Source: an uncultured Eubacteriales bacterium
GTDB taxonomy: Bacteria > Bacillota > Clostridia > Oscillospirales > Oscillospiraceae
Length of the DNA: 35,972 nucleotides
NCBI GenBank assembly: GCA_900321275.1
Contig: ONVI01000048.1
Location: 1 to 35,972, forward strand
Reading direction: 5' to 3'
Part shown: positions 8,732-35,872 of the stretch, piece by piece
Numbering within the stretch: position 1 is the stretch's first letter
How the letters are laid out: every line of letters begins with the position of its first letter
The notes under the pieces: model-generated
Told to the model about the DNA's origin: nothing
The model's database searches: none
The model's input: only the letters and a program-made list of their open reading frames with translations
Program-made: the position numbers and the translations under genes

Positions 8732-8745
8732 GAAAATGCCTCCTC

Positions 8746-9813: not shown

Positions 9814-9823
9814 AGTTATTTCC

Positions 9824-12277: not shown

Positions 12278-13353
12278 TTGGTGACAATCTCCGTCCAGGC
12301 TTTGTTGATGGCCTCGCGGTTTTTATAGGCGTTTTCCCAATCGACGCCGAGATCCTTCGCAATAAGATCGTCGGTGTCAACGGAACCCCAGGGGTTCTCC
12401 TTCATGCCCTTGAATACGGAGTGCATATAACCCTCCATGATGAGCTTCTGGGCATCCTCGCTCAAAAACCAGTTTTCCAGGGCCTCGCAGGCGTCGGCGT
12501 TGACGTTGGCGCTGCGGTCCTCGGCGACGGTCATGACCGTGGAGGGGATCAGGATAACGCCGTCCTCGGGATAGATGATCTGCAGATTCGTGACGGGCGT
12601 GCCCGCGTCTTCCGCTTCCTTGAGAACCTTCAGAATGGACTCCTCCAGAATCATGATGGCGGCACACTCGCCGGTCTGGAGCTTGGTGATGGCGGTGGAA
12701 CCGGACTCGATCATGACCTTGTTGTCGGCCAGACCCTTGAGATAGTCCTCACCGTAGTGGTTGTCCTCCGTCAGGGACGCGACGGCGGCGAAGGTGGTGC
12801 CGGAGGTCAGGGGATTGCCCATGGAGATGTAGCCTTTGAGGGAGGGATCGGTCGCAAAGTCCTTGAAGGACTTCGGGATGTTCACGCCCTTCGCGGCCCA
12901 GGTGTCCGCCATCTCCGGGTTGCAGGCCAGCACCATGTTGCACACGCGCACGGGATACCAATAGCCCTCTTCGTCGTAGGGGAAGCGGAGCAGATCGTCC
13001 GCGCCCTCAATTTCGATGGGCTCCAGATAGCCGTCCTCCTTGAGCTCCAGGGAGAAGGCGGGCTCCGCCACGAGCATCATGTCGCAGCTGAGCGTGCCGG
13101 TATCCATCTCACCGTAGAGCTTGGTGATCAGAGAAGAGGTGCCGCCGTAGAAGAAAAAGCTGCCGTCATACGCGGGGGTCAGGTTGGGAAACTCCTTTTT
13201 GATCGCCTCGTCCAGCATGTCCAGCACGAACTGATACATCGAGGAATAAATACCCACGGTGCCTTCCACATCCTCGTTGACGGCAAAGGCGCTGCCGCCG
13301 AGACAGCCGACAAACAGAAGCATCGTCAGAAGAACTGCGAGAATACGTTTCAT
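12274..13353 (-). CDS. ABC transporter extracellular solute-binding protein (Fbp/AfuA-like)
   Basis: The 359-residue exported binding protein captures the substrate for the adjacent permease. The signal peptide is MKRILAVLLTMLLFVGCLGGSAFA. The Cys in LFVGC could be a lipobox with an atypical Phe at -3, which would tether it as a lipoprotein. Otherwise cleavage after AFA would release it. The mature part has the order of segments seen in periplasmic-binding-protein type II folds of the iron/phosphonate/hexose-phosphate group: a GTVGIYSSM opening, FYGGTSSLITKLYGEM, SCDMMLVAEPAF, GYWYPVRV, GNPLTSGTTF, and VMTVAEDRSANVNADACEALENWF. The tyrosines used to coordinate iron in FbpA cannot be assigned by eye. 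It is the first gene of the operon, with an AAAGGAGG ribosome site and a good promoter. Confidence 0.88.
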   Translation of the reverse strand: MKRILAVLLTMLLFVGCLGGSAFAVNEDVEGTVGIYSSMYQFVLDMLDEAIKKEFPNLTPAYDGSFFFYGGTSSLITKLYGEMDTGTLSCDMMLVAEPAFSLELKEDGYLEPIEIEGADDLLRFPYDEEGYWYPVRVCNMVLACNPEMADTWAAKGVNIPKSFKDFATDPSLKGYISMGNPLTSGTTFAAVASLTEDNHYGEDYLKGLADNKVMIESGSTAITKLQTGECAAIMILEESILKVLKEAEDAGTPVTNLQIIYPEDGVILIPSTVMTVAEDRSANVNADACEALENWFLSEDAQKLIMEGYMHSVFKGMKENPWGSVDTDDLIAKDLGVDWENAYKNREAINKAWTEIVTK

Positions 13354-15645: not shown

Positions 15646-17883
15646 ATGATGCAAAGGAATACTACAATAAATGATGTTCGCCGCTTCTCGCTGCGCCGTG
15701 CGATCGCGTCTCTGCTGGTCGCGGCGGAGTGCTTGTCCCTTGCTGCCGTTGGGGTTCCGGTCTCCTATGCGGAGGAACAGATTCTGACAACCGGGCAGAC
15801 GGAGCAGGTCGTCCTGTCTCCGGGGGCGGAGGAAGAAACGCTGATTGTCGAAGAGAGCACGCCTGTGCAGGCGCCTGCCGCCGTCACACCGCTGGAGGCG
15901 GCACGGATGGGCGCAGAGACGGCGGAGCAGCTTGCGGGAGAGGCCGAACGCGCTGCCGAAGAGGCGGAGCAGGCGGCACGGGACTGCGCCGAGGCAAACG
16001 GCGACTATGCGCTGACGCTTGACGCCGACGCCCGCGCGGCGGAAGCGGCCCGACGCGCACAGGAGATTGCCGGACGCGCGAAAGAGGAAGCTGACTGGGC
16101 GGCAGAGGCTGCTTCGATCGCGGCGGAGGAAGCAGAGCAGGCGGCGCAGCAGGCCGAAATCCTGGCTTCCGAGGCGCAGTTCGCGGAAGAACTGGCCTAT
16201 CAGACGGCCGAAGAAGCGGATCGACTGCGCGAAGAGGCAGACCTGAGAATCGAGAGAATAAACGAAATCCGCTCGACGGCGGAGCCGATTGACAAAACGA
16301 ATAAAGCAGAGGAAAAGAAAAGCGATAAGCCCGACACGAAAGGGAAGGGCACAGAGCTGGTTGAGGAAACAAACAGCCCCGTCATTACCGAAAAGCCTTC
16401 AGAAACAATAAGTGATATTTTGCTTCCGGCGCTGCAGCTGGAAAAAGAAGAGGAAGCCGCGGAGATTATGCTGCAGCGTGCGATTGCCGAAGCCGAGCGC
16501 ACGAAGAATGAAGCCGCGATGAAGCGGGCGGATTCAGAGCACGCGGCAGAAAACGCGGCACGTCTCGCCGAAGAAGCGGAGCAGGCGGCGTACGCGTCCA
16601 TGAACGCGACGGATGCGGCGAACCGCGCAGCGTTGGCGGCTGATCGCGCGGCAGAGGCAAATCTGTACGTTTCCGAGGCGGCCTCGGTCGCTGCGGAAAA
16701 CGAAGCTGCGAGAATCGCAAAACTTGAACAGGAAAAGGCTTCGGAGAAAGCAGAAGAAACCGTAACCGAGACAGCTGCTGAAGAAGCGAAGGAAGAAGCG
16801 AAGGAAGAAGCGAAGGAAGAAGCGAAGGAAGAAGCCAAAGAAGAAGTCAAAGAAGAAGCGAAAGAAGAAACCAAGGAAGAAACCAGGGAAGTCAAAACAC
16901 TGGATTATTCCGAAGGGGCCGTTTCCGTCACAGGCGAAGCGCCTGCGGGTACGACCGTCGAGACAGCGGATGTTACCGACGACTACGCCGACTTTGATCC
17001 GAGCATTTATTCAGCGTTCTCTCTGCTTGAGGCGCCGACGTTTTTCGATGTGGAATCGAACACACAGCGCACGACGGAAACACAGTATCAGGTATTGGCG
17101 GCCTACGATATCTCCCTGTCCGTAGATGGAGAAAAGTTCCAGCCCGCACCCGGAAATCCGCTGGAGGTCAGCATCAGCAATCCCGCGATCAGCGAAAATC
17201 TGCGGCTCCAGGTCTGGCATATCCGCGACGACGGCACCGGCGAGCAGATCCCGGATTTTACTGTCGAGGGCGAAAGCGTGCGCTTCCCGGCGGAGAGCTT
17301 TTCCGCGTACCTCGTTGTGCAGGTCACGCTCACGACAAACATCACCGCCGGTGACGGCAATACTTACCGCGTCAGCGTGACCTACGATCAGGACGCGAAC
17401 ATGCCCGAAAACGCGAACCTTGCGGTTCGTGAGCTGGGCGATGACGAGAAAGAAGATTATGTAAACCAGAGCGCGGAAGCGCTCGGCACCGACGCGGAGG
17501 ACTTCGCGTTTGCCCGCGCTTTCGACATCAGCCTCACCGATCCCGACACCGGCGACGAGGTTCAGCCCGCGAGCGGCGTGAAGGTCAGCATCGCCCTGCT
17601 GGACACGGACGTGAGCGCGGCGGACGAACTGAATCTGCTCCACTTCGGCGAAGAGGTGGAGAAGGTCGACTATACCCTCAATGGCAGCGCCGTCGAATTC
17701 GAGACAGACGGGTTTTCCGTGTATGTGATCACGGGCTACACCGTGGACTTCCACTGGGGCGACTATACATACTCCATCGCGGGCGAGAGTGAGATCACCC
17801 TCTCCGCCCTTCTGGAGAAGCTCGGCGTGACGGAGACTGGCGGCTCCGCTCCCTTGCGCCCTTCAGCACCGACGAAAAGCTGA
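15646..17883 (+). CDS. Giant adhesin, N-terminal segment: signal peptide, coiled coil, EEAK repeats, beta modules
   Basis: The open segment is 745 codons. Residues 1-42 are an export signal with a long basic N-region (RRFSLRRAIASLLVAAECLSLAAVG) and a probable cut after VSYA. Residues about 80-200 and 265-370 are almost pure Ala/Glu/Arg heptads, i.e. extracellular coiled coil. Nine EEAK-type repeats follow (379-414). From about 420 the protein becomes beta-rich: a VTGEAPAGTTVE strand, an AYDISLSVDGEKFQPA module ending FSAYLVVQVTL, a similar AFDISLTDPDTGDEVQPASG module ending FSVYVITGYT, then HWGDYTYSIAGESEITL. The paired AYDISL/AFDISL modules look like internal duplicates. The natural coding does not end at the stop at 17881-17883. 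The protein sense continues one phase over (FSTDEKLTLTLKNGRS), so the last ~15 residues here are probably out of frame. Confidence 0.8.
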   Translation: MMQRNTTINDVRRFSLRRAIASLLVAAECLSLAAVGVPVSYAEEQILTTGQTEQVVLSPGAEEETLIVEESTPVQAPAAVTPLEAARMGAETAEQLAGEAERAAEEAEQAARDCAEANGDYALTLDADARAAEAARRAQEIAGRAKEEADWAAEAASIAAEEAEQAAQQAEILASEAQFAEELAYQTAEEADRLREEADLRIERINEIRSTAEPIDKTNKAEEKKSDKPDTKGKGTELVEETNSPVITEKPSETISDILLPALQLEKEEEAAEIMLQRAIAEAERTKNEAAMKRADSEHAAENAARLAEEAEQAAYASMNATDAANRAALAADRAAEANLYVSEAASVAAENEAARIAKLEQEKASEKAEETVTETAAEEAKEEAKEEAKEEAKEEAKEEVKEEAKEETKEETREVKTLDYSEGAVSVTGEAPAGTTVETADVTDDYADFDPSIYSAFSLLEAPTFFDVESNTQRTTETQYQVLAAYDISLSVDGEKFQPAPGNPLEVSISNPAISENLRLQVWHIRDDGTGEQIPDFTVEGESVRFPAESFSAYLVVQVTLTTNITAGDGNTYRVSVTYDQDANMPENANLAVRELGDDEKEDYVNQSAEALGTDAEDFAFARAFDISLTDPDTGDEVQPASGVKVSIALLDTDVSAADELNLLHFGEEVEKVDYTLNGSAVEFETDGFSVYVITGYTVDFHWGDYTYSIAGESEITLSALLEKLGVTETGGSAPLRPSAPTKS
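16780..16887 (+). repeat. 12-bp tandem repeats coding EEAK
   Basis: Nine 12-bp units, mostly GAAGAAGCGAAG, encode EEAK x5, EEVK, EEAK, EETK and EETR. The purine-rich, near-identical early units could slip in replication. Twelve bases keep the frame, so length change would alter only a charged helical spacer. Confidence 0.85.
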
Positions 17884-17909
17884 CCCTCACCCTCAAAAAC
17901 GGCAGGAGC

Positions 17910-19337
17910 GTGGAGATCAAGGTCACGGACGCGGTGACGCTGCCTATTACAAACCAAACGTGGGATTTTACGAGTGAAGGCGGAGGTCACGGCACATGGG
18001 AAATCGATGTAAACGGTGTCTTGACTCTTTCTGGAGAAGGCATAATAAAAGACAGAGATAGTGCAGCGGGTTTTCCTTGGGGAGCGTATGAAATAAGGAA
18101 GGCCATTACCAAGGTAATTATTGAGGATGGCATTACATACTTAGGTAATAACATGCTAACTCGTGCCAGCATGACGGAAATTGACGCATCAGGGTGCACG
18201 ACACTAACATCGACGGGAGGAAATACATTTAAGCAAGGTGATTATGGCGGGGAAACAGGTACACAAAAGAATCTTACTACTGTTAACTTCTCAAACAACA
18301 CAAATTTAACCAGCTTTAAAGGTAGAGATTTTGAAAAATGCACCGGCATCACGACTTTGGATATTTCAGGCACGAAACTCACAAAACTCTCTGACTTTGA
18401 TGCAAGTAAAACAAAACTTGCTACTATTAAAGCCAATAATTGTTCGAAATTGCCTGCATCTTTAAGCTTGTCTGATTATTCATCGCTTCGGACTTTGGAA
18501 CTCTCCGGCTGCACGCAGTTGACCAGCCTGACCTTGCCGAGCGGCGTGACGACGCTGGACGTCTCCGGCTGCACCAAATTGACCAGTCTGACCGTACCGA
18601 GCGGCGTAACGACGCTGAACATCACCGGCTGCACGGGCCTCAAGACGCTGGACATTTCCGGCTGCAGCGGGATCGACTCACTGAATCTCTCCTCCTGCAC
18701 CGGTCTCGCAACACTTAAGATCGGAAACCGCAATGACCAGGCAAATTTGTCCTGGCTGGCGCTGCCGGCTTCGCTTACCACGCTGGACGCCTCCGGCTTC
18801 ACAAGCCTGACGTCCGTCAGCGTTCCCGCGTCGGTCACCAGCCTGAATCTCTCCGGCTGCACGGGCCTCCAGCCTGACCCTGCCAAGCGGCCTGACCACG
18901 CTGAACGTCTCGGGCTGCACGGGTCTGACCAGCCTGACCGTGCCGAGCAGCGTAACGACGCTGGACATCACCGGCTGCACCGGGCTGGAAACACTGGACG
19001 TCTCGGACTGCACGGGGCTGACCAGTCTGACCGTACCGAGCGGTGTGACCACGCTGGACGTGTCCGGCTGTACGGGCCTGACCAGCCTGACCGTGCCGAG
19101 CGGTATCCAGACGCTGAACATCACGGGCTGCACTGGCTTGACCAGTTTGTCCCTTGTCGGCTGCGAGGGATTATCCTCTGTCGACGTGCCTTCCAACGTT
19201 ACCGAGCTGAATGTCTCCGACTGTACCGGCTTGACCAGTCTGACCGTGCCGAGCGGCGTAACGACGCTGGACATTTCCGGCTGCAGCGGGATCGACTCGC
19301 TGGATCTCTCCTCCCACACCGGTCTCGCAACGCTTAA
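17910..19337 (+). CDS. Giant adhesin, second segment: leucine-rich repeats (only to about 18868 in true frame)
   Basis: The nominal GTG at 17910 is not a real start. The open frame continues the preceding segment (TLKNGRSVEIKVTD). A BspA-like opening (TWDFTSEGGGHGTWEIDVNGVLTLSG, ITKVIIEDGITYLGN) leads into 20-residue leucine-rich repeats of the form LTSLTVPSGVTTLDVSGCTG. Bases 17950-18480 are clearly AT-richer (about 37-45% GC by hand count on sample lines) than the repeats after 18480 (about 60%). At 18868 the frame breaks: the repeat should read GLTSLT but reads GLQPDP. From there to 19337 the translation (Pro/Asp/Arg/His-rich) is an out-of-phase shadow. Confidence 0.65.
   Translation: MEIKVTDAVTLPITNQTWDFTSEGGGHGTWEIDVNGVLTLSGEGIIKDRDSAAGFPWGAYEIRKAITKVIIEDGITYLGNNMLTRASMTEIDASGCTTLTSTGGNTFKQGDYGGETGTQKNLTTVNFSNNTNLTSFKGRDFEKCTGITTLDISGTKLTKLSDFDASKTKLATIKANNCSKLPASLSLSDYSSLRTLELSGCTQLTSLTLPSGVTTLDVSGCTKLTSLTVPSGVTTLNITGCTGLKTLDISGCSGIDSLNLSSCTGLATLKIGNRNDQANLSWLALPASLTTLDASGFTSLTSVSVPASVTSLNLSGCTGLQPDPAKRPDHAERLGLHGSDQPDRAEQRNDAGHHRLHRAGNTGRLGLHGADQSDRTERCDHAGRVRLYGPDQPDRAERYPDAEHHGLHWLDQFVPCRLRGIILCRRAFQRYRAECLRLYRLDQSDRAERRNDAGHFRLQRDRLAGSLLPHRSRNA
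18644..18868 (+). repeat. 225-bp direct repeat, copy 1
   Basis: From GACGCTGGACATTTCCGG to CTGCACGGGCCT, this stretch is nearly identical to 19263-19487, with about a dozen substitutions by eye and no length difference. The frame breaks immediately after its last base. Confidence 0.85.
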
Positions 19338-19494
19338 AATCGGAAATCGCAACGACCAGACGGATTTGTCCTGGCTGACGCTGCCGGATTCGCTTACCAC
19401 GCTGGACGCCTCCGGCTTCACAAGCCTGACGTCCGTCAGCGTTCCCGCGTCGGTCACCAGCCTGAATCTCTCCGGCTGCACGGGCCTACCCTGA
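18940..19494 (+). CDS. Giant adhesin, third segment: leucine-rich repeats continued
   Basis: The true coding resumes in this frame from 18869. GTG 18940 is just the first possible start. The translation is eight more repeats of the type LTSLTVPSGVTTLDVSGCTG, then the block with IDSLDLSSHTG, GNRNDQTDLSWLTLPDSLTTL and a SLTSVSVPASVTSLNLSGCTG ending. It stops at 19492-19494 because the frame breaks again after 19487. With GACC restored it would run on as LTTLNLTGCSDNDLIIYF in the frame of the last segment. Confidence 0.65.
   Translation: MPSSVTTLDITGCTGLETLDVSDCTGLTSLTVPSGVTTLDVSGCTGLTSLTVPSGIQTLNITGCTGLTSLSLVGCEGLSSVDVPSNVTELNVSDCTGLTSLTVPSGVTTLDISGCSGIDSLDLSSHTGLATLKIGNRNDQTDLSWLTLPDSLTTLDASGFTSLTSVSVPASVTSLNLSGCTGLP
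19263..19487 (+). repeat. 225-bp direct repeat, copy 2
   Basis: This is the second copy of 18644-18868. It too ends with CTGCACGGGCCT, and the frame breaks immediately after. The bases that follow (ACCCTGAACC) lack the GACC expected from the repeat pattern. Confidence 0.85.
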
Positions 19495-19766
19495 ACCTTA
19501 CCGGATGCTCGGACAACGACCTGATCATCTATTTCGATGGGACTTCCGAAAACCTCTCCGTAACGATACCGGAGGATTATTCTGTAATTTGCTGGGGCGA
19601 CTATCCCTATACCATCAACAGAAATGCCACCGTAACGCTGGGTGATATTTTCACCACCTGCGGTATCACGGACATTTTCACTGCCCACGGAATCACGGAC
19701 ATTGCTGATGTTGTTGACAGCATCGCCGTTTCTGATCCGGAAATCCTGGAAGTCGACGGCCTGACA

Positions 19767-22700
19767 GTGACGTATCTGAAAGCCTTCACGGAGCCGCAAA
19801 CGCTGACTGTTCGGCTCAAGAACGGATTAAGCGGCGCGATCAAGGTGGCTTGCCCGTCACTGGAGGAATCCGATAATCTCAACGATTTCCTTGATGATGC
19901 TGCCGGATACAGCTACGAAGGCGAAACGGAGACGTACTCGCTTTCGAAACCGGCCTTCCTTGCACAGGATGAAGTACTACATTTAAATCTGTCCTTCTCC
20001 GAAATACCGGAAGGGCAGGCGGGCGAGCGCCAGATGGCATTGCTGGCGCCGATGAGCTATACCCTTCCCGCGGGCCTGACGGTTGTTGAAGGATCGCTTC
20101 CGCTTGCCGCGATCACCGTCCCGGGCGTTGAAGAGCCCTTCCCCGCCTCTGTGAGCCTTGGCACGGATCCCGACACAGGTTTGCAGATACTGACCGTAGT
20201 AGGAAACTATGGGGATCAGAGGGACGCGGTCACCGCGGCTTCCACGGCCGGCGTCACCCTGTCTGTGGCCGTTAAGCCGGACACGATTCCGGAAGACTAC
20301 GAGCTCGGCAACGGCATGACTTTACCCGTCGAACTTATTCGCCTCACGCCTGATGACTATGTGCCGCTCACAAGAGAATATCTCGGACTGGACGGCAGCT
20401 GGGCGCACTGGAAAGTTACTGTAAATCCGAGCGGCTATACGCTCAACAAAGGCAGAGACCTTACGCTCGCCGACACTTTCGATGACGACTATCCGACAAA
20501 GAAAACAAAGATAGACGCCGATCAGTCCATTGACTATTCCAGCGTTAAGGTAAAACGTGATGGCGTTGTCGTTAATGATTACAGCTATGATTACAGCGGC
20601 AACACCGGTACCTTTATCATCCCGGACAATACGCCCGTTACGATCGAGTATCGCACGCGCATATCAGCCCAGCCGGGTGAGGCGAAGACCTTCCGCGGTA
20701 CGGCACGGCTCAGGGACGCCGCTGGGGAGATTGCCAGCTCTACGGCGGGCGTTACCGAGGAGGCGGTCACGATCTATCCCAGCCCCTCTGACGTCGGAGG
20801 TATGGGCGACAGCTTTATGGTGAAGCTCTATGTCTATGCCGATGGACAGATGCAGCAGGGCGTCGTAGGGGCGGAGTTTATCCTTTTGGACGCCAGTCAG
20901 CGCCCTCTGGAGTATAAGGTGGGCGATAATAAGGGGCAGCCCGTTACCTTTACCACCGGCAGCGACGGCTATGTCAACATTGAGCTCAACGAGGAGCCCG
21001 GCGACGTCTCCATTGAGAAGAATACCGGCTACTACCTCGAAATGAAGCAGGCTGTGGCGGGATACCAGAAGGACAACACCCCGTACAGCTTCATGATTAC
21101 GGACGATCCGTCCTATGACACAGGAGGATTCTATCAATATTATAACGGCGACACAATGAAGGTGCGTCTTTACCCCGCCAGCCCCGGACTCCGCGTCTCC
21201 ATACACTTTTCCGGCAGCTACGCCCTGCGGGCGGATCAGAAAAACGCTGTGACAGCCATCCTCCAGAAGCTGGAGGATAATGAAAACTGGGTCGAGGTTG
21301 AGCGCCACCCCTATACGGATACTCTATATGGATCGATCACCTTCAATGAAATATTGTATGACGCATCAAAAGGAACGTATCAGAATATCTATCGCGTTGT
21401 CGAAGAGAATGAAAGACCCTGGGATTTGCCTGATGATATCCATCTTGAAACAACGTTTTACTGTCTGGTAAATACGGGAACCGCTGACCCGAAAAAAGAA
21501 CCGCAGGAATTCATGGCCCATAGTGCCGATGACAGCGTCGACGTCGTCATTGACAACTGCTATGAGGAGCCGCAGCTGACCATCGTCAAGATGGATAAGC
21601 AAACGGGCAAGACGTTAGGCGGCGCGGTCTTCTCGGTTTACAAGATCGTCAATGGCGCAAAGTCCGGCGAAGCAGTCATAACGTATACGACGGAGGCTGA
21701 CGGCGAGTTGGTGATCCAGGGCGGCAGCGCCTTTGTATCTGAGACTCTCTACGGTATCACAGAGACCACCGCGCCGACGGATTATCTACTGCCGCAGGAA
21801 GAGGAATGGCTGTATTTCTACTTCTGCAATGACGAATATCTGGAGCCGAGTATTCTGGCGAACCTTCCCGAGGGTGCTGAGGCGATCAACCTGACAACTT
21901 CCGGCGACATAATCACGATCGACAACCAAAAGGAAATTATTACCATCCCTGTCATGAAGATATGGCAGGGCGGCGCGTGGCCTGCCGATGTGACCGACGT
22001 AACGATTGGGCTGTATCGGTCTGTCGAAGGCAGCGGCGTAGTGGATCCCGTTTATTACGATGGCAGTACTACAAAGCGTACCGTCACGTTGACGAGCGCC
22101 GCACCCTACAACAACACGGCCTTCACGGAACTGCCCTCACGGGATGCCGGCGGAAACATCATATACTCCATCAAGGAGGAAAACATCGACGGTCAGGATC
22201 CGTTGACAGCCGGCTATAACCAGGAATACGGCACTTCCAGCGCCGGCGTGTATGTCGTGCGCAACAAACCGGCCACTACACTGACGGTCAGCAAAGCGTG
22301 GGAGGACTTTAACGGCAATCCCGTTGCTGATCCTGCGGCGCAGTCCCCCGTCACCTTCGACGTTTATCGCTCGTCCACACTTTTTGTGGATCCAGACCCG
22401 ACCGATGGCGTCACCAACGCGGATATGATGGCCTTTGTCAGCAATCTGCCGAAGGTGCGTGAAGGCGTGAGCTTCGGCGCCCCGGATTGGAATACATCCA
22501 TTAATGACCTGGACAGACAGGACGACCTGGGCAATCTCTATTACTATTATGTTTTAGAGACCGTACCCTCCTTCGGCAACGAGCTGTATGAGCTGAACGA
22601 AGCAGCCGGTGAAATCTTGATCAAAAACAAGATCGCGCCGTCTACCGTGGGTCTGACGGTGACAAAGGCCGCGCTGAAGGACGATCCCCGTCCGGAGTCC

Positions 22701-28700: not shown

Positions 28701-31700
28701 ACTTCCAGCGCCGAAGCCAATGACCACGACGTCCTGATGCAGATCAACGGCAATACGATCATCAACACCACGAGCAACGGCCTCGGTTCCGGGGCGCATA
28801 TCGGCGTGTATGTGCCGGGTGTAAATGGCGACGATATCTATGGCAAGCACGGCAAGTACAGCCAGCCCTTCGGCACTTACCACAAGAGCACCGCCGGCAG
28901 CAACTTCCTGGACGCCTTCTTCAACAACCGCGACAGCGAGCTGTACGGCTATCAGGGCGACACATACATCCATTGGGGCTTCTATGTCTGCAAGATCACG
29001 GACGCGGAAGGCAACACCCTCAAGCGCACCAACGGCAGAGACGCCGTCTACCAGCAGATGTCCCAGGCAGTTAACGATTTCACAAGCGTCACAGGCGGAG
29101 AACCGGTCTATATCAAGATGCTGGTGGAGAACTATGCCGTCCGGCAGGATACCGCAATCACCAACTTCCCCGCCGCGGACATCACCCTGACCACAGCCTC
29201 CAAATCGGACACCGATCATCCCTACCGCGGCACGGAGGGCACGTTCAGCACCATCTATCGCACCAACAGTGAAAACCCGCTGTTCAGTGTGGGCACGGAT
29301 AATGCTGTCTTCCAGCTCAAGGACATCACCCTGGATGGCCGCCGCAATGACAAGACAGCCACAGAAGGCGCATACAAGCTCATCACATCTGACAAGGGAG
29401 CAATCGTTGTCAACAGCGGCACCACGCTGCAATACGCGAAGAGCGACAGCGGCGCGGCCATCACCGCCGTTCAGGTGACGATCAACGGCAGCTATGACAC
29501 GGAGAAGAAGGAGCCGACCGTTAAGATCACCAACTGCACGGCAACAGGCAGCGGCGGTGCGATCAGTACGCAGAACCTGACAATCACCAATACAAGCAGC
29601 AAAGCGGGCGAGTACGGTACAGTCTTTTCAAGCTGCGCCTCCGAAGCTGACGGCGGCGCAGCCTATGTCAGCGGCAGCACCATGTCCATCACCGGCACGC
29701 TGTTCCAGAACTGCCAAAGCACCGGCGAGGGCGGTGCGGTCTGCCACAGCGATTCCGACGCTAATGCTTCTTCCATCAGCAACAGCTCCTTTGCAAGCTG
29801 CTCCGCAACGCTCAGCGGCGGCGCGGTGAGCTCCAAGGCCGTGACGCTTACGCTTGCGCAGTCCGTTTTCGATAACTGCAGCTCTAAGCAGAACGGCGGC
29901 GCGGTCAACCATGCGGGAACCACCGGCACGACGATCACCGACACTGTCTTCACCAACTGCAAGACCACCGGCACCGGCCCGGATTACGGCTTCGGCGGCT
30001 CGGTATACATCGAAGCCCTTACGGTCGCGGTGAGTGGCGGAAGCTTCACAAACAGCACAGCCAATAACCACGGCGGCGCGCTGTATTGCAAGAACAACGC
30101 CGATGATTCCGCAACGACGATTTCCGGCTCCGCCTTTGAAAGCTGTTCCACGAACCGCGTCACGGACGGCGCAGGCGGCGCGATCTACAGCGAGAACAAG
30201 ACGCTCACCCTGCAGAAATACACGGCGGATGACGGCACCGTTACCAACACCACCATCAACGCCTGCATAGCCCTGGGCTACAGCGGCGCGGTCCACATGG
30301 CGACGACCGACAGCATCCTGAACATCAAGGACGGCACCGTGATCAGCGGCTGCTATGCCGATCAGGGCGGCGCGATCTACCTCCCGAGCGAGATGACGCT
30401 GAACCTCACCGAAAGCCCGGAGTTTACCCAGAACGGCTATACCACCAGCGGCGGCGAAGTGAGCGACGCCACAGAGGGCGCGTGCATCTATCTGTCCGAG
30501 GGCAGCCGAATCAATCTTCAGGGCAGCCCGAGGTTCAGCCGCAACATTCTGCCGAACGAGCCCAGAATTCCCAACGGCGGCGTCACAGACTATGTGCGCC
30601 AGGATATCTACCTGGCGGGTTATGCGTCTGATACAGAGTTCGATACCAATGCGGCGTCGATCTATGTCGTCGGCGAACTGACCGGCGATACCATCTGGGT
30701 CTGGCCCGAGCAATCACCCCACAAATTGCCCAATGAACAGTTTGCGAAGATCCTCGACGGCGTCACGGTCAGTGATGACAGCCTGGGTCATTTGCGCAAC
30801 GCCCTGTCTGATGCCGTAACCAACTGCAGCAACGGCGAGTATCTGGCCGGCGTACAGCTCGGCACAGACACGGTAAATGTCTACTGGGACAAGATGTATA
30901 CCGTCTCCTTCAAGAAGATCGACAACAAGGGCGTCAGAGTGCCCGACGCAGAGTTCACCCTCTATAAGTACCAGGATCTGACCAGAGTCAGCGAGGAAGA
31001 GGCCTTTATACCGGAAAATGTCGTTGCGACAGCAGTCTCTGATAATTCCGACGCCCAGGAGAAGAGAGGCATGGTGGACTTCAACGCCATCCGCATCGGC
31101 GTGTATTACATGAAGGAGACCAAGGTCCCCATCAGCTTCAAGGAAAACAACGCGACATATCTGGTGCTGGTTGGCACGCCGTACCTCAGCCCCAATGACA
31201 ACAACAGATATCTGTGGGAGGGCGACGGGCCGCTCAACGTAGCGAATGCCGAGGACCTTGTTGCCCAGCATACGACCAGTGCAGGCAGATACTACGGCAT
31301 CTTCCCGCTGGACGAGAATAAGCAGGCAAAGCTCCGCGCGAATCTGGCCAGCAGCAGCGTGGGCATAGAAAATGTCCGCAACGACTACCAGGTCAGCTTT
31401 ATGAAGGTGGACAGCTCCGGCGCTGCGCTGCCGGGCGCGGCCTTTACGATCTACACCGCGATTCTGGACAGCAGCGGCCAACCGGACACTTTTGATGACG
31501 GTTATCCGAAGATGATGCGCTGGAGCCGCGACGGAGAAACATATCCTGACCCTGCCGTTTCCGCGGATGGTACTGCCGCCTACAAGGACGTGAAAAACAA
31601 AACGCTCCCCAAGGGAATGGTGTATTTCCGTGAGGTGCCCCTCGGCACCTATTACCTCCTTGAGACTGCGTATCCTGAGCGAAACGGGAGCGGCTACCGC

Positions 31701-34700
31701 ACCTTCTATTTGGAGAGCGACCGGGTATTCAAGCTGGAGGTCGAGGAGAAACAAGGATCGAGGGAAGAGGTCAACGTCACGCTCAGCGAGTGGAAAGCAG
31801 CCGATGAGGACGGCCCCGCACACTATGAGGAGCTTTCCAAGGACACGAACGACGAATATTACGTTGTTTCCAACCAGGAGGTCGTCTGCAAGCTGACGGA
31901 CGCCAACGACAATCTGCTCTATGTCAAGGGACATGAAGTCTGGGAGAATAAGGTATCCGAAGCCAGACTTTTCCCCGCAATCTACACGACGCTGGAGGAG
32001 GGTTTCGAGGCCGCGCAGGCGGGAAGCTTTGTCAATAGAAACGGGAATCCGGTTATCGTGAACGCCTTGAAGCTGAAGGTGCTGAAGGACTTTACGATCT
32101 CCAAACCGATACTCTATAACAACGACCGCAAGATCACCTTTACCACAGCGGAAACAAGGGTGCCATGGAGCAGGGAGGATAGCAGGGACATCTATATATT
32201 CAGCACCACCCGTACCTCAGACACCTCCAGAGCCCTGATCAGCCGCGCGTACAAGGAGGATAACTCCACCGACGCAAACGCGGGCGCGCTCATTACCCTT
32301 GACGACGGCGCGGATATGACCCTGCAAAATATCAGACTCAACGGCCAAAAGAACACGTATTACGGCAGGGCGTTCCATGTTGTGGACGGCTCCCTGACCA
32401 TTCTGGACAGCGTTCAGCTGCAGAACTTCAAGGTGTCGATCAGAAATTCGGAGAAAAGCGACATCCGAGGCGGCGCGATTCTTCTGGAGGACAACACAAG
32501 TCTGACCGTTGACGGCGGAGCACAGCGCAGATCGGCAGTATTCACGAGCAACCAGACTGTGAACTATACGGAAGGCGGCTCCGACGGCGGCGCGATCGCG
32601 ATCGGTGAAAACTGTACCGTCAGCCTGAGCAACGCACAGTTTACCAGCAACAGCGTGTTGGCTGCCGGGAATAAGAAGGGCAACGGCGGCGCGATCAGCG
32701 CGGCCCAGGCCAATCTACCCCTTCGGAATGTGGTCTTCCGGAACAACGAAGCCAGAAATGATGGCGGCGCGGTTTACATTACGGGGAACTCCAGCTTGAC
32801 AGCGGATAACTGCATTTTTACCGGCAACGAGGCGAACACAAGGGATACCAACGCCGGCGAGGGCGGCGCGATCGCGGCGCTTTCCGAGGCGGCCGCCCCC
32901 TCTGAGCTGACGATTACAGGCGGTACCTTCACTGAAAACTCTGCCGCGAACGGCGGCGCGATCATGATCGGCGACTACGGTACGTTGCTCCTGAATGAAA
33001 CGACCATGAGCAGCAACAAAGCAGCCTGCGGCAGCGCTGTCTATGCGGAGGACTCTGCCGAAGTCACCGCCATCGACGCGAGCATCACCGGCAACACAGC
33101 CAGCGGAGAAAACGGCGGCGCTATCAATGTCGGCGGCGTAAACGCAAGACTCTACTTTGGCGGCAGCCCCACCGTGTTTGACAACTTTGGCGCCCTCGGC
33201 GATACGCAGCAGATGAACCTTGTCCTGAACGAAGACAGCAACGAGGTTATCAATACCACGGCAGACGGACTGACGAATGGCGTAATCGGCGTATTTGTCA
33301 TCGAGAGCGACAGCAATGTGTTTGAGAAGCACGGTCTGCCGGGCAAGCCCTTCGGCACCTTCCAGGATAAGACCGCCCGTGCGAATCCCCAGGTCTTCCG
33401 CAGCGACCATGCGCTGTCCCTCTACGGCGTCAGAAACGAAGACAATCCCAATGACGATCTGATCTACTGGGTGGACGTGATCTGTAAGCTGACGGATGCC
33501 AGCGACAATATTCTCTATCAGGACATCTACCTCACCATCAACGGCAAGACGGAGACGCGCAAGGCCCAGGCTGTCTATGCAAGAATCACCGCGCCGGATG
33601 ACCAGGAGAGTGATCCGAACGGCTTCAACGCATCACATGACGGCTTTGACGCTGCGGGGGGGACTCTCTACACAAAGAATGGGGATACCTACACCGCGTA
33701 TCCGAACACGAACCAGACCGATATTAAGCTCAAAATGCTGAGGGATTACGACATTGACAAGAGCATCCGGTATCAGGGCAACCGCATGGTGACCTTCACC
33801 ACGGCAGAGACAGGCGATCCGACCGATGTGATGAGAACGCGGGGAGACTACTTCTGCTTCAAGACCGATCGGACGGGTGCGGACGGCAGAGCATGGATTC
33901 AGCGTGATTTGACGCCGAATACAGAGCCAAACAATAACTGGAGAAATGCCTTGATTGAGGCCCCGATGATTGCTGCCACAGGCACAGCCCTGACCCTGAC
34001 CGACATCACCCTCGACGGCGCGAAGAGTTCCTACACAAGCAGAGCGAATGGCGGTATCGTCAATGTAGCCTCCGGAAGCAGACTGTATGTCGTAAACGGC
34101 GCCAAGCTGCAAAACTCCGCAACCTCCGCCAGCGGCGGGGCGGTGCATGTCGCTTCCGGCGGTGCACTGACCATGACCGGCGGCGAGATTATCGGCAACA
34201 CGGCATCCGGCAACGGCGGCGCGGTGTATGTCGATCCCAACGCTTCAATGACCATGGCCAACGAAGTATTGACCAATGGTGCCGTGCTTAGAGGAACAAT
34301 CAACGGCAACACTGCGTTAAACGGCGCGGGCATCTATCTGGCGTTTACCGACGAAAATAACCACGCCGTGCTGTACATCTCCGGCGAACCGTACTTTGGC
34401 GGGACAGGGACAAATGCTGGAGGCAATTTCATAGTTGTCGATGCCGATGGCAATCCTCTCGGAAACTTTGTCCGGAAGGGGGCGGACTTCAAGCCTGAGG
34501 GTAATGATCCGACGAACGGCAGCAAGCCGTACCGGAAGGATAATCAAGACTACTATCTTGTCCGCCAGGACATCTTTATTCCCGGTACGGCGGCACCTCA
34601 TAACGCCATCCGCATAACGGGCAAAATCACCTCCGGCGACGGCTCAATCTGGGTCTGGGCAAATGATGGCGAAAAGGGCAAGGTTAATCACTACGAAATG

Positions 34701-35753
34701 CTCAAGCAGTTCGCTGTGATTGCTGACGGTGTTACGATCGACGAAAACACCTACAAGGTCTTCCGCAACGCACGTTCTGACGCGGATACCGACTGCGGCG
34801 GCGATTACCTGACAGGCCAGAGCGGTGACAAGATCGGCGGATGGAACTGCGTATATTGGACAGGAGGCTTCGATGTTCTGTTCCAAAAAATCGACGGCTA
34901 CGGCAAAGATATGGACGGCGCTACCTTTACACTGTATAAGGCCAATGACACCGGCACGGCGATCACAGAACCCTTCCAGCGCTCTCAGAAGGATGTAACA
35001 GCCGTATCCGGGAACATTCATGAGAATGCGGCAGTGATGATAAAGGTGAAGGGCGCAGGCAACACAACAGAGGACAGGGCGGTCTACGGAGACGGTCTGG
35101 CCGTGTTCGAAAAAATCCCGCCCGGTGTCTACTTCATGAAGGAGACCAAGGTCGTCGATTCCAACGGCACGGACTTTACATCAAAGTACCGGACAGTAGA
35201 AGAACAGTACAAGATTGTGCTCGACAAGATGGGCTGGTATACAATCTATACTCCCGCGTACGGTTCGGACGGAAAGCCTGACTGGACAGCAGCATCGCTG
35301 CCGACAGCGCCGACGTCGAATTTCGTAAAGGATTCCAACGGAAAGTATACGAAACCGGCATCCCCGGCTTCTGTAGGAGACTTGGAGGTTTATACCGTTT
35401 TGAATATCGCCCCGACCGTGACACGCAAAGTAATTCTGCGCAAGGTGGATAGTGCATATAAACCTTTGGATAAGCCCGTGTTTACAGTTTATTATGCTGA
35501 TGGTCAGTCTATTGTAAGACTACAGAAACAGAATGGGATAGTCGAGACGCTGAAGGACTTAAAGGCTCAATCCTCTGGCGTAACCTGGATTGGCACTCTG
35601 CCATATGGTATATACTATCTGGTTGAGACAACGGATGCAGAAGGCAATTCCCTTGAACCCGGGTCAGAGATTCGCTATACTCTGACCGTCGGCGATGACA
35701 GCGTTACAGCACCCGGCAGCAGAGACGGAGTTGTAATCAAAGGACCAAACTGA
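19767..35753 (+). CDS. Giant adhesin, main segment: Cna-B/SpaA domains and five beta-helix modules
   Basis: The 5,328-codon segment is numbered from GTG 19767, but coding continues back to 19488, so this is not a true start. Residues about 210-340 resemble a collagen-adhesin-like strand module (WAHWKVTVNPSGY, DLTLADTF). A SpaA domain begins LTIVKMDKQTGK at 604; its Lys and the Glu of ITETTAP are the usual isopeptide pair. Cna-B-like domains follow (VMKIWQGG, LTVSKAWEDFNGN). Beta-helix 1 spans about 1099-1403. A tandem of domains sharing GAxLxVEE and FTNTR covers 1412-1905. An InlB-type repeat (VSFDSNGG...FLGWT) starts at 2036. Beta-helices 2 to 5 start at about 2243, 3074, 4039 and 4571. Two SpaA domains follow helix 3 and two follow helix 5 (YYMKETKV, YFMKETKV). 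The GGA(I/V) and F-x-x-C/N pattern recalls chlamydial polymorphic membrane proteins. The end, VVIKGPN, has no sorting signal. Confidence 0.85.
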   Translation: MTYLKAFTEPQTLTVRLKNGLSGAIKVACPSLEESDNLNDFLDDAAGYSYEGETETYSLSKPAFLAQDEVLHLNLSFSEIPEGQAGERQMALLAPMSYTLPAGLTVVEGSLPLAAITVPGVEEPFPASVSLGTDPDTGLQILTVVGNYGDQRDAVTAASTAGVTLSVAVKPDTIPEDYELGNGMTLPVELIRLTPDDYVPLTREYLGLDGSWAHWKVTVNPSGYTLNKGRDLTLADTFDDDYPTKKTKIDADQSIDYSSVKVKRDGVVVNDYSYDYSGNTGTFIIPDNTPVTIEYRTRISAQPGEAKTFRGTARLRDAAGEIASSTAGVTEEAVTIYPSPSDVGGMGDSFMVKLYVYADGQMQQGVVGAEFILLDASQRPLEYKVGDNKGQPVTFTTGSDGYVNIELNEEPGDVSIEKNTGYYLEMKQAVAGYQKDNTPYSFMITDDPSYDTGGFYQYYNGDTMKVRLYPASPGLRVSIHFSGSYALRADQKNAVTAILQKLEDNENWVEVERHPYTDTLYGSITFNEILYDASKGTYQNIYRVVEENERPWDLPDDIHLETTFYCLVNTGTADPKKEPQEFMAHSADDSVDVVIDNCYEEPQLTIVKMDKQTGKTLGGAVFSVYKIVNGAKSGEAVITYTTEADGELVIQGGSAFVSETLYGITETTAPTDYLLPQEEEWLYFYFCNDEYLEPSILANLPEGAEAINLTTSGDIITIDNQKEIITIPVMKIWQGGAWPADVTDVTIGLYRSVEGSGVVDPVYYDGSTTKRTVTLTSAAPYNNTAFTELPSRDAGGNIIYSIKEENIDGQDPLTAGYNQEYGTSSAGVYVVRNKPATTLTVSKAWEDFNGNPVADPAAQSPVTFDVYRSSTLFVDPDPTDGVTNADMMAFVSNLPKVREGVSFGAPDWNTSINDLDRQDDLGNLYYYYVLETVPSFGNELYELNEAAGEILIKNKIAPSTVGLTVTKAALKDDPRPESLYRDFEFTLKLQVDDNHPVRSWQVYTDAVNPDNNLVTDWNGEVKFTLKPTNPAQQPTEGASITLSLPVGVTATVTETYNPEYTVETSTDGGTTKESGSTFSYVTDSGTPELSLTYTNTLHVVCKVVKDNGTQVPFETLKSALKYIRTNPDDFDENTWTIYMLEDYTIPVTDVVELADEESLTLTTATTDETDLFHFKPGQETDRAVITRGGVGESMLTNAGTLTLENICLDGGNITATGDGGLVNSTGTLNLNNKTTLRNSAANGKGGAVYAEGPVNIIDGVSIIGNSAPSASALYLKGTLTMTGGSITGNTGAADGAVVVKDAGGVVYLSYSPVIIANTNAQGEAANLYIGIDSDNIVNVVDPGLNEDAQIGVTAQEGHMLIGEQFATAEYGQTANLNRFVNDVYGYRGKLKDGTSTNIVWDGLTIKIKKVVDPVGANANDRFTITLSSQSIIMSTYIIDGTLDYTVTAARQGRPGRIVLRNIKAEDEITISPMPVGNYTIAEDASNYNPTYKLGDMPIVDGSFTADDNCTVTVTNTRRLADVKLTKTLDDRLKAAGEAQDFGFTVKLTEADGTPVKGFTLAEGITTDENGEATFTMSLTDGNTAEHYDVKNFMAPVGATMTITETIDLNYEITASAVTMPEEGRGTAIPDKDTGNANIFAFDVTDDGADVTFANVRKMAEIELRKELVNKVSKTESFKFTVTLSRADGTAAANYIIYRDSADPAKNIVTNGSGQATILLELGEDESAKAITLTIPDGAKLVVEETDTNGHMGFYTTTYSINGAAATTGATATINAVSDTDRSIVFTNTRTTKTITVKNTVNGYSGNVVPFTYTATVTDGSESGNDYDAYDFEDGVLTFELTKDQTKTLTVPYGATLTVEEAFIVGYSTTVKRGGEAAVEALSDSFTVTTDMSSSSPLLFTNNQLIGLQLINNTSSELENVTVTVEKNNIYRVNADKKGQTLIGSNQTATLDIDSGDTAILEIQHDTSKMDTSQNYTVNGRTPADGYYYTIINEPSFHEYADPAILRVYDAADFEVKGKLRYSVQDSIVTFTEQPLVSFDSNGGAWTTEMDGYHDRDGDRKVYQKAVDTGAKVARPSSDPVYPTAEGIDFLGWTEYQEYAKQDHSTDTEIDPEKAYDFNTPVTAPITLYAVWAKPARDERVVTVKNGSNESLNVTATLSQDNIPTSGYALADGLTTNENGQASFELPAGESKNLTVPDGMELVLGLDKESLAVSSEYTLTASADNKSHTIDSVSRDGTVTFIPGICKITDSEGSVLYDSEGKPAVYGTLVAAFTAYPNITNAAAVKLLVDEYTIQEATPIAFPNKTMTLTTAGKNDTDFPYVGVRDRATIYRSTAGANAKCFTLSTGNVTLTNIVLDGGSELGVKIANTANGGLLFIEGGTLTVETGTTLRNCEYADYTDGNNSRGGAINIKKGTLNINAGLFTNLHARNGGAIYADGSATTMNLTGTNGSTNFENCIAEASGGAVYYNASGNLTIDGGTDNGFRVDAQGETQFDANNKKIEVSNPGIVFTSCVAKSSSVGNGGAIYINSSGVAVIRGCSFVECSAKVNINDNRQNGGGAIAANNVNTMTVSNCTFSACDTLTTGGAVFARIKDGTSMTVNNCIFRNDSCKGQGGGIGVYQNNENASTTALLTVNGCSFENCSSGTQNGSGGAIQSYLPCMSLNNSEFSDCWAGKEGGGINNYFGNNYTQQWSQSYLNMSGCTFTRCRAEDRFQVDIVVHYGGALNTKANTVNVDDCEFVECVSTLRDGGALHLGGCGAGSSATISNSTFTSCTAKKHGGAVFSSAETLEISNSKFYGCMSTADSGGAVYHGMNCRSEQNVKKETKITNCEFKQGCGAAINGSAVWTAAQSAVITGCTIEGCTTGNSGAIYLSDKDVKINTSGNKETGTTAIAVSLPSGALARGTITGGSITGCQAVSGSAVYVGHSAIFSSPTDDSGHFTDATLTISGNSVSGSNCGAIQTVDTGKLYFEGNVVVEKNTSSAEANDHDVLMQINGNTIINTTSNGLGSGAHIGVYVPGVNGDDIYGKHGKYSQPFGTYHKSTAGSNFLDAFFNNRDSELYGYQGDTYIHWGFYVCKITDAEGNTLKRTNGRDAVYQQMSQAVNDFTSVTGGEPVYIKMLVENYAVRQDTAITNFPAADITLTTASKSDTDHPYRGTEGTFSTIYRTNSENPLFSVGTDNAVFQLKDITLDGRRNDKTATEGAYKLITSDKGAIVVNSGTTLQYAKSDSGAAITAVQVTINGSYDTEKKEPTVKITNCTATGSGGAISTQNLTITNTSSKAGEYGTVFSSCASEADGGAAYVSGSTMSITGTLFQNCQSTGEGGAVCHSDSDANASSISNSSFASCSATLSGGAVSSKAVTLTLAQSVFDNCSSKQNGGAVNHAGTTGTTITDTVFTNCKTTGTGPDYGFGGSVYIEALTVAVSGGSFTNSTANNHGGALYCKNNADDSATTISGSAFESCSTNRVTDGAGGAIYSENKTLTLQKYTADDGTVTNTTINACIALGYSGAVHMATTDSILNIKDGTVISGCYADQGGAIYLPSEMTLNLTESPEFTQNGYTTSGGEVSDATEGACIYLSEGSRINLQGSPRFSRNILPNEPRIPNGGVTDYVRQDIYLAGYASDTEFDTNAASIYVVGELTGDTIWVWPEQSPHKLPNEQFAKILDGVTVSDDSLGHLRNALSDAVTNCSNGEYLAGVQLGTDTVNVYWDKMYTVSFKKIDNKGVRVPDAEFTLYKYQDLTRVSEEEAFIPENVVATAVSDNSDAQEKRGMVDFNAIRIGVYYMKETKVPISFKENNATYLVLVGTPYLSPNDNNRYLWEGDGPLNVANAEDLVAQHTTSAGRYYGIFPLDENKQAKLRANLASSSVGIENVRNDYQVSFMKVDSSGAALPGAAFTIYTAILDSSGQPDTFDDGYPKMMRWSRDGETYPDPAVSADGTAAYKDVKNKTLPKGMVYFREVPLGTYYLLETAYPERNGSGYRTFYLESDRVFKLEVEEKQGSREEVNVTLSEWKAADEDGPAHYEELSKDTNDEYYVVSNQEVVCKLTDANDNLLYVKGHEVWENKVSEARLFPAIYTTLEEGFEAAQAGSFVNRNGNPVIVNALKLKVLKDFTISKPILYNNDRKITFTTAETRVPWSREDSRDIYIFSTTRTSDTSRALISRAYKEDNSTDANAGALITLDDGADMTLQNIRLNGQKNTYYGRAFHVVDGSLTILDSVQLQNFKVSIRNSEKSDIRGGAILLEDNTSLTVDGGAQRRSAVFTSNQTVNYTEGGSDGGAIAIGENCTVSLSNAQFTSNSVLAAGNKKGNGGAISAAQANLPLRNVVFRNNEARNDGGAVYITGNSSLTADNCIFTGNEANTRDTNAGEGGAIAALSEAAAPSELTITGGTFTENSAANGGAIMIGDYGTLLLNETTMSSNKAACGSAVYAEDSAEVTAIDASITGNTASGENGGAINVGGVNARLYFGGSPTVFDNFGALGDTQQMNLVLNEDSNEVINTTADGLTNGVIGVFVIESDSNVFEKHGLPGKPFGTFQDKTARANPQVFRSDHALSLYGVRNEDNPNDDLIYWVDVICKLTDASDNILYQDIYLTINGKTETRKAQAVYARITAPDDQESDPNGFNASHDGFDAAGGTLYTKNGDTYTAYPNTNQTDIKLKMLRDYDIDKSIRYQGNRMVTFTTAETGDPTDVMRTRGDYFCFKTDRTGADGRAWIQRDLTPNTEPNNNWRNALIEAPMIAATGTALTLTDITLDGAKSSYTSRANGGIVNVASGSRLYVVNGAKLQNSATSASGGAVHVASGGALTMTGGEIIGNTASGNGGAVYVDPNASMTMANEVLTNGAVLRGTINGNTALNGAGIYLAFTDENNHAVLYISGEPYFGGTGTNAGGNFIVVDADGNPLGNFVRKGADFKPEGNDPTNGSKPYRKDNQDYYLVRQDIFIPGTAAPHNAIRITGKITSGDGSIWVWANDGEKGKVNHYEMLKQFAVIADGVTIDENTYKVFRNARSDADTDCGGDYLTGQSGDKIGGWNCVYWTGGFDVLFQKIDGYGKDMDGATFTLYKANDTGTAITEPFQRSQKDVTAVSGNIHENAAVMIKVKGAGNTTEDRAVYGDGLAVFEKIPPGVYFMKETKVVDSNGTDFTSKYRTVEEQYKIVLDKMGWYTIYTPAYGSDGKPDWTAASLPTAPTSNFVKDSNGKYTKPASPASVGDLEVYTVLNIAPTVTRKVILRKVDSAYKPLDKPVFTVYYADGQSIVRLQKQNGIVETLKDLKAQSSGVTWIGTLPYGIYYLVETTDAEGNSLEPGSEIRYTLTVGDDSVTAPGSRDGVVIKGPN
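23061..23975 (+). repeat. Beta-helix module 1 (type A end)
   Basis: It opens VVCKVVKDNG and continues to MLEDYTIPV and LTLTTAT, then GGAVY-type helical rungs. It closes with the VDPGLNEDAQIGV region and YGYRGKL...NIVWDG. It is the shortest module and has few Cys. Confidence 0.7.
26493..28980 (+). repeat. Beta-helix module 2 (type A end, Cys-rich)
   Basis: It opens GICKITDSEGSVLY, KLLVDEYTI, MTLTTAGKNDTDFPY. About 28 Cys occur in rungs such as GCSFVECSAK, NCTFSACD, GCSFENCSSG and DCEFVECVST, each near a GGAI/GGAV turn. It closes INTTSNGLGSGAHIGVYV, KHGKYSQPFGTY, LYGYQGDTYIHWG. Confidence 0.75.
28981..30900 (+). repeat. Beta-helix module 3 (type B end)
   Basis: It follows module 2 without a linker. 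It opens YVCKITDAEGNTL, KMLVENYAV, ITLTTASKSDTDHPY. Rungs FSSCASEADGGAAY, FQNCQSTGEGGAV and FDNCSSKQNGGAV follow. It closes VRQDIYLAGY, DTIWVWPE, FAKILDGVTV and VNVYWDK, then a SpaA domain. Confidence 0.75.
31881..33470 (+). repeat. Beta-helix module 4 (type A end)
   Basis: It opens VVCKLTDANDNLLY, KVLKDFTISK, ITFTTAETR. Rungs include FTSNQTV...DGGAIAIG and FRNNEARNDGGAVYI. It closes VINTTADGLTNGVIGVFV, KHGLPGKPFGTF, LYGVRNEDN...LIYWVD. Confidence 0.75.
33471..34867 (+). repeat. Beta-helix module 5 (type B end)
   Basis: It opens VDVICKLTDASDNILY, KMLRDYDIDK, VTFTTAETGDP. It has a short helical body (GGIVNVASG, SGGAVHVASG, GGAVYVDP). It closes VRQDIFIPGT, GSIWVWAND, FAVIADGVTI, NCVYWTGG, then two SpaA domains. 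Confidence 0.75.
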
Positions 35754-35790
35754 GATCAGGCAACCCACTCCGTAAGCAAAACAACATGCG

Positions 35791-35820
35791 CCCCCGGTCA
35801 GCGGGAAACCTGACCGGGGG
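35791..35820 (+). terminator. Hairpin after the giant gene, lacking a T-run
   Basis: Arms 35791-35801 (CCCCCGGTCAG) and 35810-35820 pair fully over 11 bp around an 8-nt loop. The bases after it are GCACAAAACA, so it is not a classic terminator alone. It may protect the 3' end of the transcript. Confidence 0.5.
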
Positions 35821-35833
35821 GCACAAAACAGAG

Positions 35834-35872
35834 AGCTCCTCAGATACGATGCATGTATCTGAGGAGCTTTTT
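35834..35872 (+). terminator. Strong intrinsic terminator of the giant gene
   Basis: Arms 35834-35847 (AGCTCCTCAGATAC) and 35855-35868 are exact complements over 14 bp with a 7-nt loop (GATGCAT), followed by five T (35868-35872). Confidence 0.9.

Follow-up and report, generated by a model that had tools for sequence, protein, structure and literature searches.

Does the locus at positions 15646-35753 (+ strand) encode one very large protein or several smaller ones, and if it is one protein, how is it kept at the cell surface? The window, by which we mean the whole stretch of 35,972 nucleotides that was analysed, is the complete contig C68 of a metagenome-assembled genome (2.74 Mb, 101 contigs) of an uncultured member of the Oscillospiraceae. 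In the ORF listing the locus appears as three ORFs on one strand, of 745, 475 and 5328 aa. A sequence-only reading had proposed that these belong to a single exported mosaic protein of about 6,700 residues, split by three frame breaks. It missed that the giant family has no wall anchor and that it is linked to type IV pilus (T4P) genes. The coding layout of the locus is as follows.

15646-17883, + strand: ORF 1, 745 aa
17835-17883, + strand: frame break 1; residues of intact relatives are missing here
17910-19337, + strand: ORF 2, 475 aa
18770-18868, + strand: exact 99-bp repeat, copy 1, with frame break 2 at its 3' end
19389-19487, + strand: exact 99-bp repeat, copy 2, with frame break 3 at its 3' end
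19497-35753, + strand: main body, 5418 codons without a stop; 58% identity to G107 over 5401 alignment columns
19767-35753, + strand: ORF 3, 5328 aa

Three reading frames, one gene

Evidence for a single gene comes from G107, a genome of the same genus. It carries one ORF of 6888 aa to which the pieces of the window align in the same order: piece A over residues 17-730, pieces B and C in the leucine-rich repeat (LRR) part, where they overlap because an LRR unit is doubled in the window, and piece D with 58% identity over 5401 columns. Hence, the three window ORFs are pieces of a single gene, whose mosaic product of about 6,700 residues is predicted to be exported, as had been proposed. That the deposited contig shows three ORFs would suit several independent genes. 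We give that reading next to no credence, since one G107 ORF is matched in order by all pieces and the breaks cut LRR units in mid-repeat (judged by eye), and it was rejected on the 6888-aa ORF.

Nor do the relatives show the separate genes or recurring stop codons that would speak against one gene. Ten giants of relatives are single ORFs, with lengths from stop to stop of 6888 aa (G107), 7050 aa (G123), 6881 aa (G120), 6856 aa (G095), 5929 and 5571 aa (the two of G072), 5490 aa (G015), 4878 aa (G027), 4951 aa (G054) and 3083 aa (G334). The giants of G091, G108 and G062 are interrupted, at places other than those of the window, and in G088, G079, G119 and L025 the contig stops inside the giant. 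The locus had also been ranked among the larger bacterial surface proteins. This goes too far, as four ORFs of the same genus are larger (6856-7050 aa), and among its congeners a protein of such length is nothing unusual. In its available part, PMC11573180 counts over 41,000 proteins that exceed 5,000 aa, mostly eukaryotic. The proposal that the exact domain order has no described counterpart is likewise too strong, as G107 has the same order.

Reading all frames confirmed the three breaks, which lie in a repeat-rich stretch where coding continuity is lost near 17.85, 18.87 and 19.49 kb. Each of breaks 2 and 3 coincides with the 3' end of one exact 99-bp repeat copy, which points to an assembly error. 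The repeat is part of a wider LRR unit of 233 nt with copies at 18636-18868 and 19255-19487 that are 93% identical. The window has two copies of this unit and G107 has one, the pattern expected from a wrong join across a repeat. The doubled unit is either a recent expansion or an assembly duplication; frame breaks 2 and 3 are probably assembly errors, and break 1, which lies away from the 99-bp repeat, may be real. A conserved programmed frameshift is an unlikely cause of the breaks, judging from the relatives, because the interrupted ones break elsewhere and ten are intact. No base was put back at the breaks; intact copies are available in relatives.

One could also argue that the window copy is a real pseudogene and that its frame breaks are biological. 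The position of break 1 would fit, as would the interruption of the giants of G091, G108 and G062 in other places and the doubling of the LRR unit relative to G107. We nevertheless consider a pseudogene unlikely, if still a serious contender, for the following reasons. First, breaks 2 and 3 match the ends of an exact repeat. Second, there is no stop in the 5418 codons downstream of the breaks (19497-35750), a stretch in which the other two forward frames contain 218 and 238 stops. Third, ten relatives have intact giants.

The surroundings of the gene can be described briefly. Upstream, at 7064-13353, the window encodes an alpha-amylase, an ABC ATPase, a permease of 817 aa that matches BPD_transp_1 in two stretches, and a binding protein; an amylase-like ORF is likewise found upstream of the giant in G088. 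The contig ends 219 bp past the giant. Hairpins follow the stop codon, and behind the larger one a T-run was seen by eye on the + strand. An inverted repeat at the contig end (35929-35966, by eye) is possibly the end of a mobile element that halted the assembly. The same genome holds a second large ORF of 2481 aa (contig C59, 99536-106981, - strand), to which the C-terminal region of the giant is weakly similar (E 8e-5); it has no LPXTG within its last 25 residues.

Module order and the missing wall anchor

What kind of protein does this gene encode? ORF 1 opens with a signal peptide, continues with a coiled-coil-like stretch and ends in two N-terminal modules; no Pfam family matched it at E<=0.01. 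The modules that follow are listed here with the evidence for each.

about 15646-15774, + strand: Sec-type signal peptide, judged by eye
16780-16881, + strand: EEAK tandem repeats within the Ala/Glu-rich coiled-coil-like stretch of ORF 1, judged by eye
17302-17736, + strand: N-module; at every position, 8 or more of the 10 secreted giants tested have a match
17850-18869, + strand: leucine-rich repeats, part 1 (Pfam LRR_4 7.6e-16, LRR_5 1e-11)
18940-19491, + strand: leucine-rich repeats, part 2, in a shifted frame (Pfam LRR_EndoS 1.6e-12); 69% identity to the LRR part of G107
21573-22994, + strand: SpaA (4.6e-14), Cna_B (2.2e-7) and DUF7601 (7.2e-7) domains
23067-24000, end approximate, + strand: putative beta-helix unit 1, CK cap at 23067; fold by motif only
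24771-26153, + strand: DUF7601 domains by Pfam, plus an InlB-type repeat that is weak (Flg_new does not reach its cut-off)
26499-28988, + strand: putative beta-helix unit 2, cap at 26499; PF13229 at 2.7e-11 in 26601-29000
28989-30890, end approximate, + strand: putative beta-helix unit 3, cap at 28989
30900-31880, + strand: SpaA domains separating beta-helix units; PF17802 at 2.1e-32, four stretches in 30297-35750, the best at 30900-31172
31887-33482, + strand: putative beta-helix unit 4 with a Chlam_PMP repeat, cap at 31887; PF02415 at 7.5e-7
33483-34890, end approximate, + strand: putative beta-helix unit 5, cap at 33483
34899-35750, + strand: SpaA domain at the C-terminus, together with a sub-threshold pilin-D1-like match; neither an LPXTG motif nor a membrane tail
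35790-35868, strand unassigned (hairpin listing: - strand only): hairpins 3' of the stop codon, a possible terminator; the larger one has 14 pairs

LRR, SpaA, Cna_B, DUF7601, Beta_helix and Chlam_PMP (PF02415, 29.2 bits against a cut-off of 20.6) each exceed their Pfam cut-off in at least one piece. Thus the LRR and SpaA/Cna-B parts of the domain list proposed earlier hold in a profile search; the InlB-type repeat is weak and stays below cut-off (Flg_new, E 0.016, 15.7 bits against 27). NCBIfam gave weak repeat matches only. The proposal of five beta-helices gains support, at the level of motifs, from five copies of a CK[ILV][TV][DK] cap motif (23067, 26499, 28989, 31887 and 33483) together with an excess of GGx[IV] motifs, of which the giant has 31, compared with a mean of 1.6 and a maximum of 5 over 200 shuffles.

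Domains of the SpaA/Cna-B type invite comparison with sortase-anchored adhesins. The giant has such domains, and its N-module also occurs in anchored ORFs. The difference is at the C-terminus: the giant has neither an LPXTG motif nor a membrane segment nor a basic tail, and sortase anchoring was rejected on these grounds. Eight sortase matches in the genome of the window exceed their cut-off, as does one Gram_pos_anchor match. Within the giant-bearing stretches, the ORFs of more than 1300 aa all lack an LPXTG-like motif in their last 100 residues. When the C-terminus was judged by a rule on hydropathy and charge, an anchor was called in none of 17 family members, compared with 15 of 20 ORFs that carry the N-module at other loci, which were picked by hand from the N-module matches there (Fisher p 3.1e-6). 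The 17 comprise 13 secreted giants (with L025 partial and G091 represented by its larger ORF) and four pilin-headed ORFs (G250, G001, G382 and G136); for the secreted giants alone the count is 0 of 13 (p 2.9e-5). Five comparison ORFs were scored as unanchored. One of them, from G033, ends in an LPQTG tail but fell short of the hydropathy cut, which leaves 4 of 20 without any tail. Another two are the giants found in G076, where pilin 4 is present as well.

Type IV pilus genes beside the giants of relatives

If these giants are not attached to the wall, what else could hold them? Nine relatives have their giant next to or within a T4P cluster, and in all of these except G015 the gap is under about 150 bp. 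The arrangements are several.

G107, G095, G091, L025: giant followed by pilins 1-2-3-4, gaps about 30-150 bp
G120: pilO, giant, pilin 4, then pilins 1, 2 and 3, gaps 97 and 100 bp
G015: pilO, giant, AAA-type gene (by eye), then pilins 1-4, with 3.1 kb from giant to pilin 1
G119: pilin 4 followed by giant, <100 bp, giant partial
G054, G334 (in other families): pilin 4 followed by giant, <100 bp

Of these linked giants, those of G119 and L025 are partial and that of G091 is split; G088, G079 and G076 are left out of the count because their contigs end. In L025, pilB- and pilT-like genes come after the pilins. The AAA-type gene that separates giant and pilins in G015 lies on contig C69 at 65230-66804, and a gene resembling it occurs near the giant of G027 (C5, 1545-3251). 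In G027 the remnant of a pilin-4 C-terminus directly follows the giant; its intact T4P cluster is in another place. Giant and T4P genes share a contig at a larger distance in G123 (23.6 kb) and G072 (17.8 and 52 kb). As for the window's own genome, its T4P genes form a cluster on contig C67, where a pilB-like gene is divergent from pilin 1 and there is no giant. A junction between C68 and C67 was considered and rejected: the contigs share no end of 12-200 bases, and the pilB-like gene sits upstream of pilin 1. Five pilin-like genes stand in a row on C67 (22416-27687), adjoining pilD- and pilM-like genes. Pilin 4 of this cluster (806 aa) contains repeats that look GLUG-like by eye, and it closes with GDWPxPE, a motif invariant in the four sequences aligned.

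How firm the gene names are differs from gene to gene. Pfam identifies Peptidase_A24, PilM_2 and two T2SSE ATPases, one with MshEN, in the T4P cluster. N_methyl exceeds its cut-off in pilin 4 only; pilin 3 reaches 17.1 bits against a cut-off of 21.2, and for pilins 1, 2 and 5 Pfam gives nothing of pilin type at 0.01. Pilins 1-3 and 5 were named from a hydrophobic N-terminus after a conserved Gly and from gene order, PilN and PilO from position, and PilB and PilT from order and similarity. A profile search of the PDB brought up Geobacter geopilin for pilin 3 (E 0.00055 and 0.0036) and nothing up to E 1 for pilins 1 and 2. Pilin 1 reads GASITY/F and lacks the Glu at +5, which we take to be typical of GspK-type tip pilins.

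The linkage could be a property of surface-protein loci in general. It is then relevant that no T4P reference gene matched at E 1e-5 in 20 comparison stretches. Among 101 genomes of the genus, pilin 4 occurs in 14, and it occurs in 9 of the 11 genomes with a giant N-terminal match above 150 bits (p 4.8e-8, a value that ignores shared ancestry and uses a cut set after seeing the list). Strong giant N-termini without a pilin 4 match were found in G062 and G108. Weaker N-terminal matches occur in 38 of the 101 genomes; the N-module is thus not confined to T4P proteins. Across the whole class, a search with pilin 4 gave matches in at least 188 of 391 genomes, mostly via its repeat region or the general pilin N-terminus, and was not used as a count of systems.

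Beyond linkage, there is a direct fusion. G250, which belongs to another family, has one ORF of 2948 aa (stop to stop) that opens as pilin 4, with N_methyl at 22.8 bits against a cut-off of 21.2. The pilin 4 part closes with the conserved GDWPAPE; the N-module follows directly, without a signal peptide and with 34% identity to the secreted giants over 126 residues (E 8e-17), and then come Flg_new and SpaA. This fusion stands on one assembled contig of one genome. ORFs of 1383-5261 aa in other genera also have a pilin-4-like head. Within the genus, G001 has an ORF of 5739 aa (contig C53, 54378-71597, - strand) with a pilin-4-like N-terminal region inside a T4P cluster; it is a candidate giant modular pilin. 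Next to the pilin-headed ORFs of G382, G136, G251 (C14), G170, G327, G373, G358, G135 and G001 there are T4P reference genes; none were found around the pilin-headed ORFs of G284 and of two further G251 contigs.

The giants themselves seem to move. Nine of them, grouped by best-alignment similarity and not by tree, fall into four classes.

Class 1: window and G107, 58% over 5414 columns
Class 2: G123, G095 and G120, 56-65% over 6288-6544 columns
Class 3: G072b and G015, 65% over 5088 columns
Class 4: G027 and G091, 42% over 4218 columns

Each class has at least one member linked to T4P genes and at least one away from an intact T4P cluster. G107 and G095 have PilM proteins that are 94% identical and giants of different classes, with a common 80% stretch of 565 columns. 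G095 and G120 have PilM proteins that are 55% identical and giants that are 65% identical over 6531 columns. The giant classes cut across the similarity of the pilus core, and hence it looks as if whole giants have been exchanged horizontally between species.

A proposed partnership with the pilus

T4P linkage in relatives suggests that pili hold the giants outward as oversized adhesins. Our preferred reading, which we hold with moderate confidence, is that the locus is one gene for a Sec-exported mosaic of about 6,700 residues, whose family consists of giant non-pilin effectors working with monoderm T4P. The giant would be exported by Sec, its N-terminal module region would be captured by pilin-like proteins (pilins 1-3 and the large pilin 4), and the pilus would carry it outward, where the beta-helix, LRR and Cna-B/SpaA modules could bind fibre, host or other cells. 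We infer the docking, the tip position and the ligand of the giant, and also that this mechanism would apply to the window's own copy, which is not beside its T4P genes.

Alternatively, the giant could be an ordinary secreted adhesin, held non-covalently or shed, and the T4P linkage could reflect a hot spot for surface proteins. The giants of the window, G123 and G072, all away from T4P genes, would fit this, as would the lack of pilin 4 in G062 and G108 and the many other loci with N-module proteins. It is more difficult to reconcile with T4P linkage in each of the four classes and in several layouts, with linkage in three further families (G054, G334 and G250), and with an in-frame pilin 4 fusion and a missing anchor. 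We therefore regard an ordinary adhesin as unlikely, although it deserves to be kept in mind.

It is also conceivable that the giant is no tip adhesin but a cargo whose export or release the pilus assists, a role proposed for TcpF and CofJ. The missing anchor, the Sec-type signal peptide and the adjoining pilin genes in relatives are compatible with cargo, and there is a precedent in which a minor pilin binds the N-terminus of a secreted protein (PMC9565799, in the part available). However, a monoderm has no outer membrane to cross, and in the G250 fusion the module is permanently built into a pilin. Cargo is quite improbable to us.

The proposed partnership of giant and pilus has parallels in known systems. 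The pilY1 gene sits in a minor-pilin operon, and PilY1 is about six times smaller than the giant. The giant is beside pilin genes in nine relatives and fused once; in the window's genome it is not beside them. According to the available parts of PMC8179133 and PMC10191384, PilC/PilY1 is a modular non-pilin proposed to sit at the tip on four minor pilins. It also differs from the giant: its C-terminal beta-propeller (IPR008707) was not found by Pfam in the giant pieces scanned, and it belongs to a diderm system, whereas the host of the giant is a monoderm. TcpF and CofJ, of type IVb systems, are much smaller than the giant and also come from diderms. They are secreted non-pilins whose N-termini are bound by minor pilins, with TcpF encoded in the pilus operon (PMC9565799, in the same part). 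We propose, by analogy, that the giant resembles PilC/PilY1 or TcpF/CofJ in role and differs from them in family.

Modular type IV pilins such as PilB and PilC of S. sanguinis present adhesive modules on monoderm T4P, and the G250 ORF is such a fusion; unlike G250, ORF 1 of the window has no N_methyl or class III signal. The extreme multi-domain modular pilin given in the accessible text of PMC8179133 has 860 residues. Chlamydial Pmp and other beta-helix adhesins share the GGxI/V repeats and the PMP repeat match of the giant. They differ in that Pfam finds no autotransporter barrel in the giant, whose C-terminus is SpaA and whose beta-helices are mixed with LRR and SpaA.

As far as the available text of PMC6916266 goes, monoderms lack components of the late, mostly outer-membrane T4P steps, and T4P of Ruminococcus albus mediate cellulose adhesion. 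The T4P cluster of R. flavefaciens is described in PMC3672088, whose available part does not mention a giant, and non-pilin tip effectors are given for diderm systems only in that of PMC10191384. A literature search by title and abstract start returned no paper on a giant-T4P system; coverage was thin for subscription papers and preprints, and hence this is weak evidence of absence. What is new here is the context: an anchorless giant family tied to T4P clusters in relatives.

Taken further, monoderm Clostridia may have T4P effectors of up to about 7,000 residues that are exported by Sec, lack an anchor, are carried by a complex of minor pilins, are swapped whole between species as alternative cassettes and have been turned into giant modular pilins in sister lineages by direct fusion. 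We put this wider picture forward tentatively. If true, a monoderm pilus with partners of 3,000-7,000 residues would widen what T4P are thought to present, and it would explain how unanchored giants are retained on the cell. It would also provide a handle on how uncultured gut Clostridia attach. The G250 fusion pinpoints two candidate contact segments, the end of pilin 4 and the N-module.
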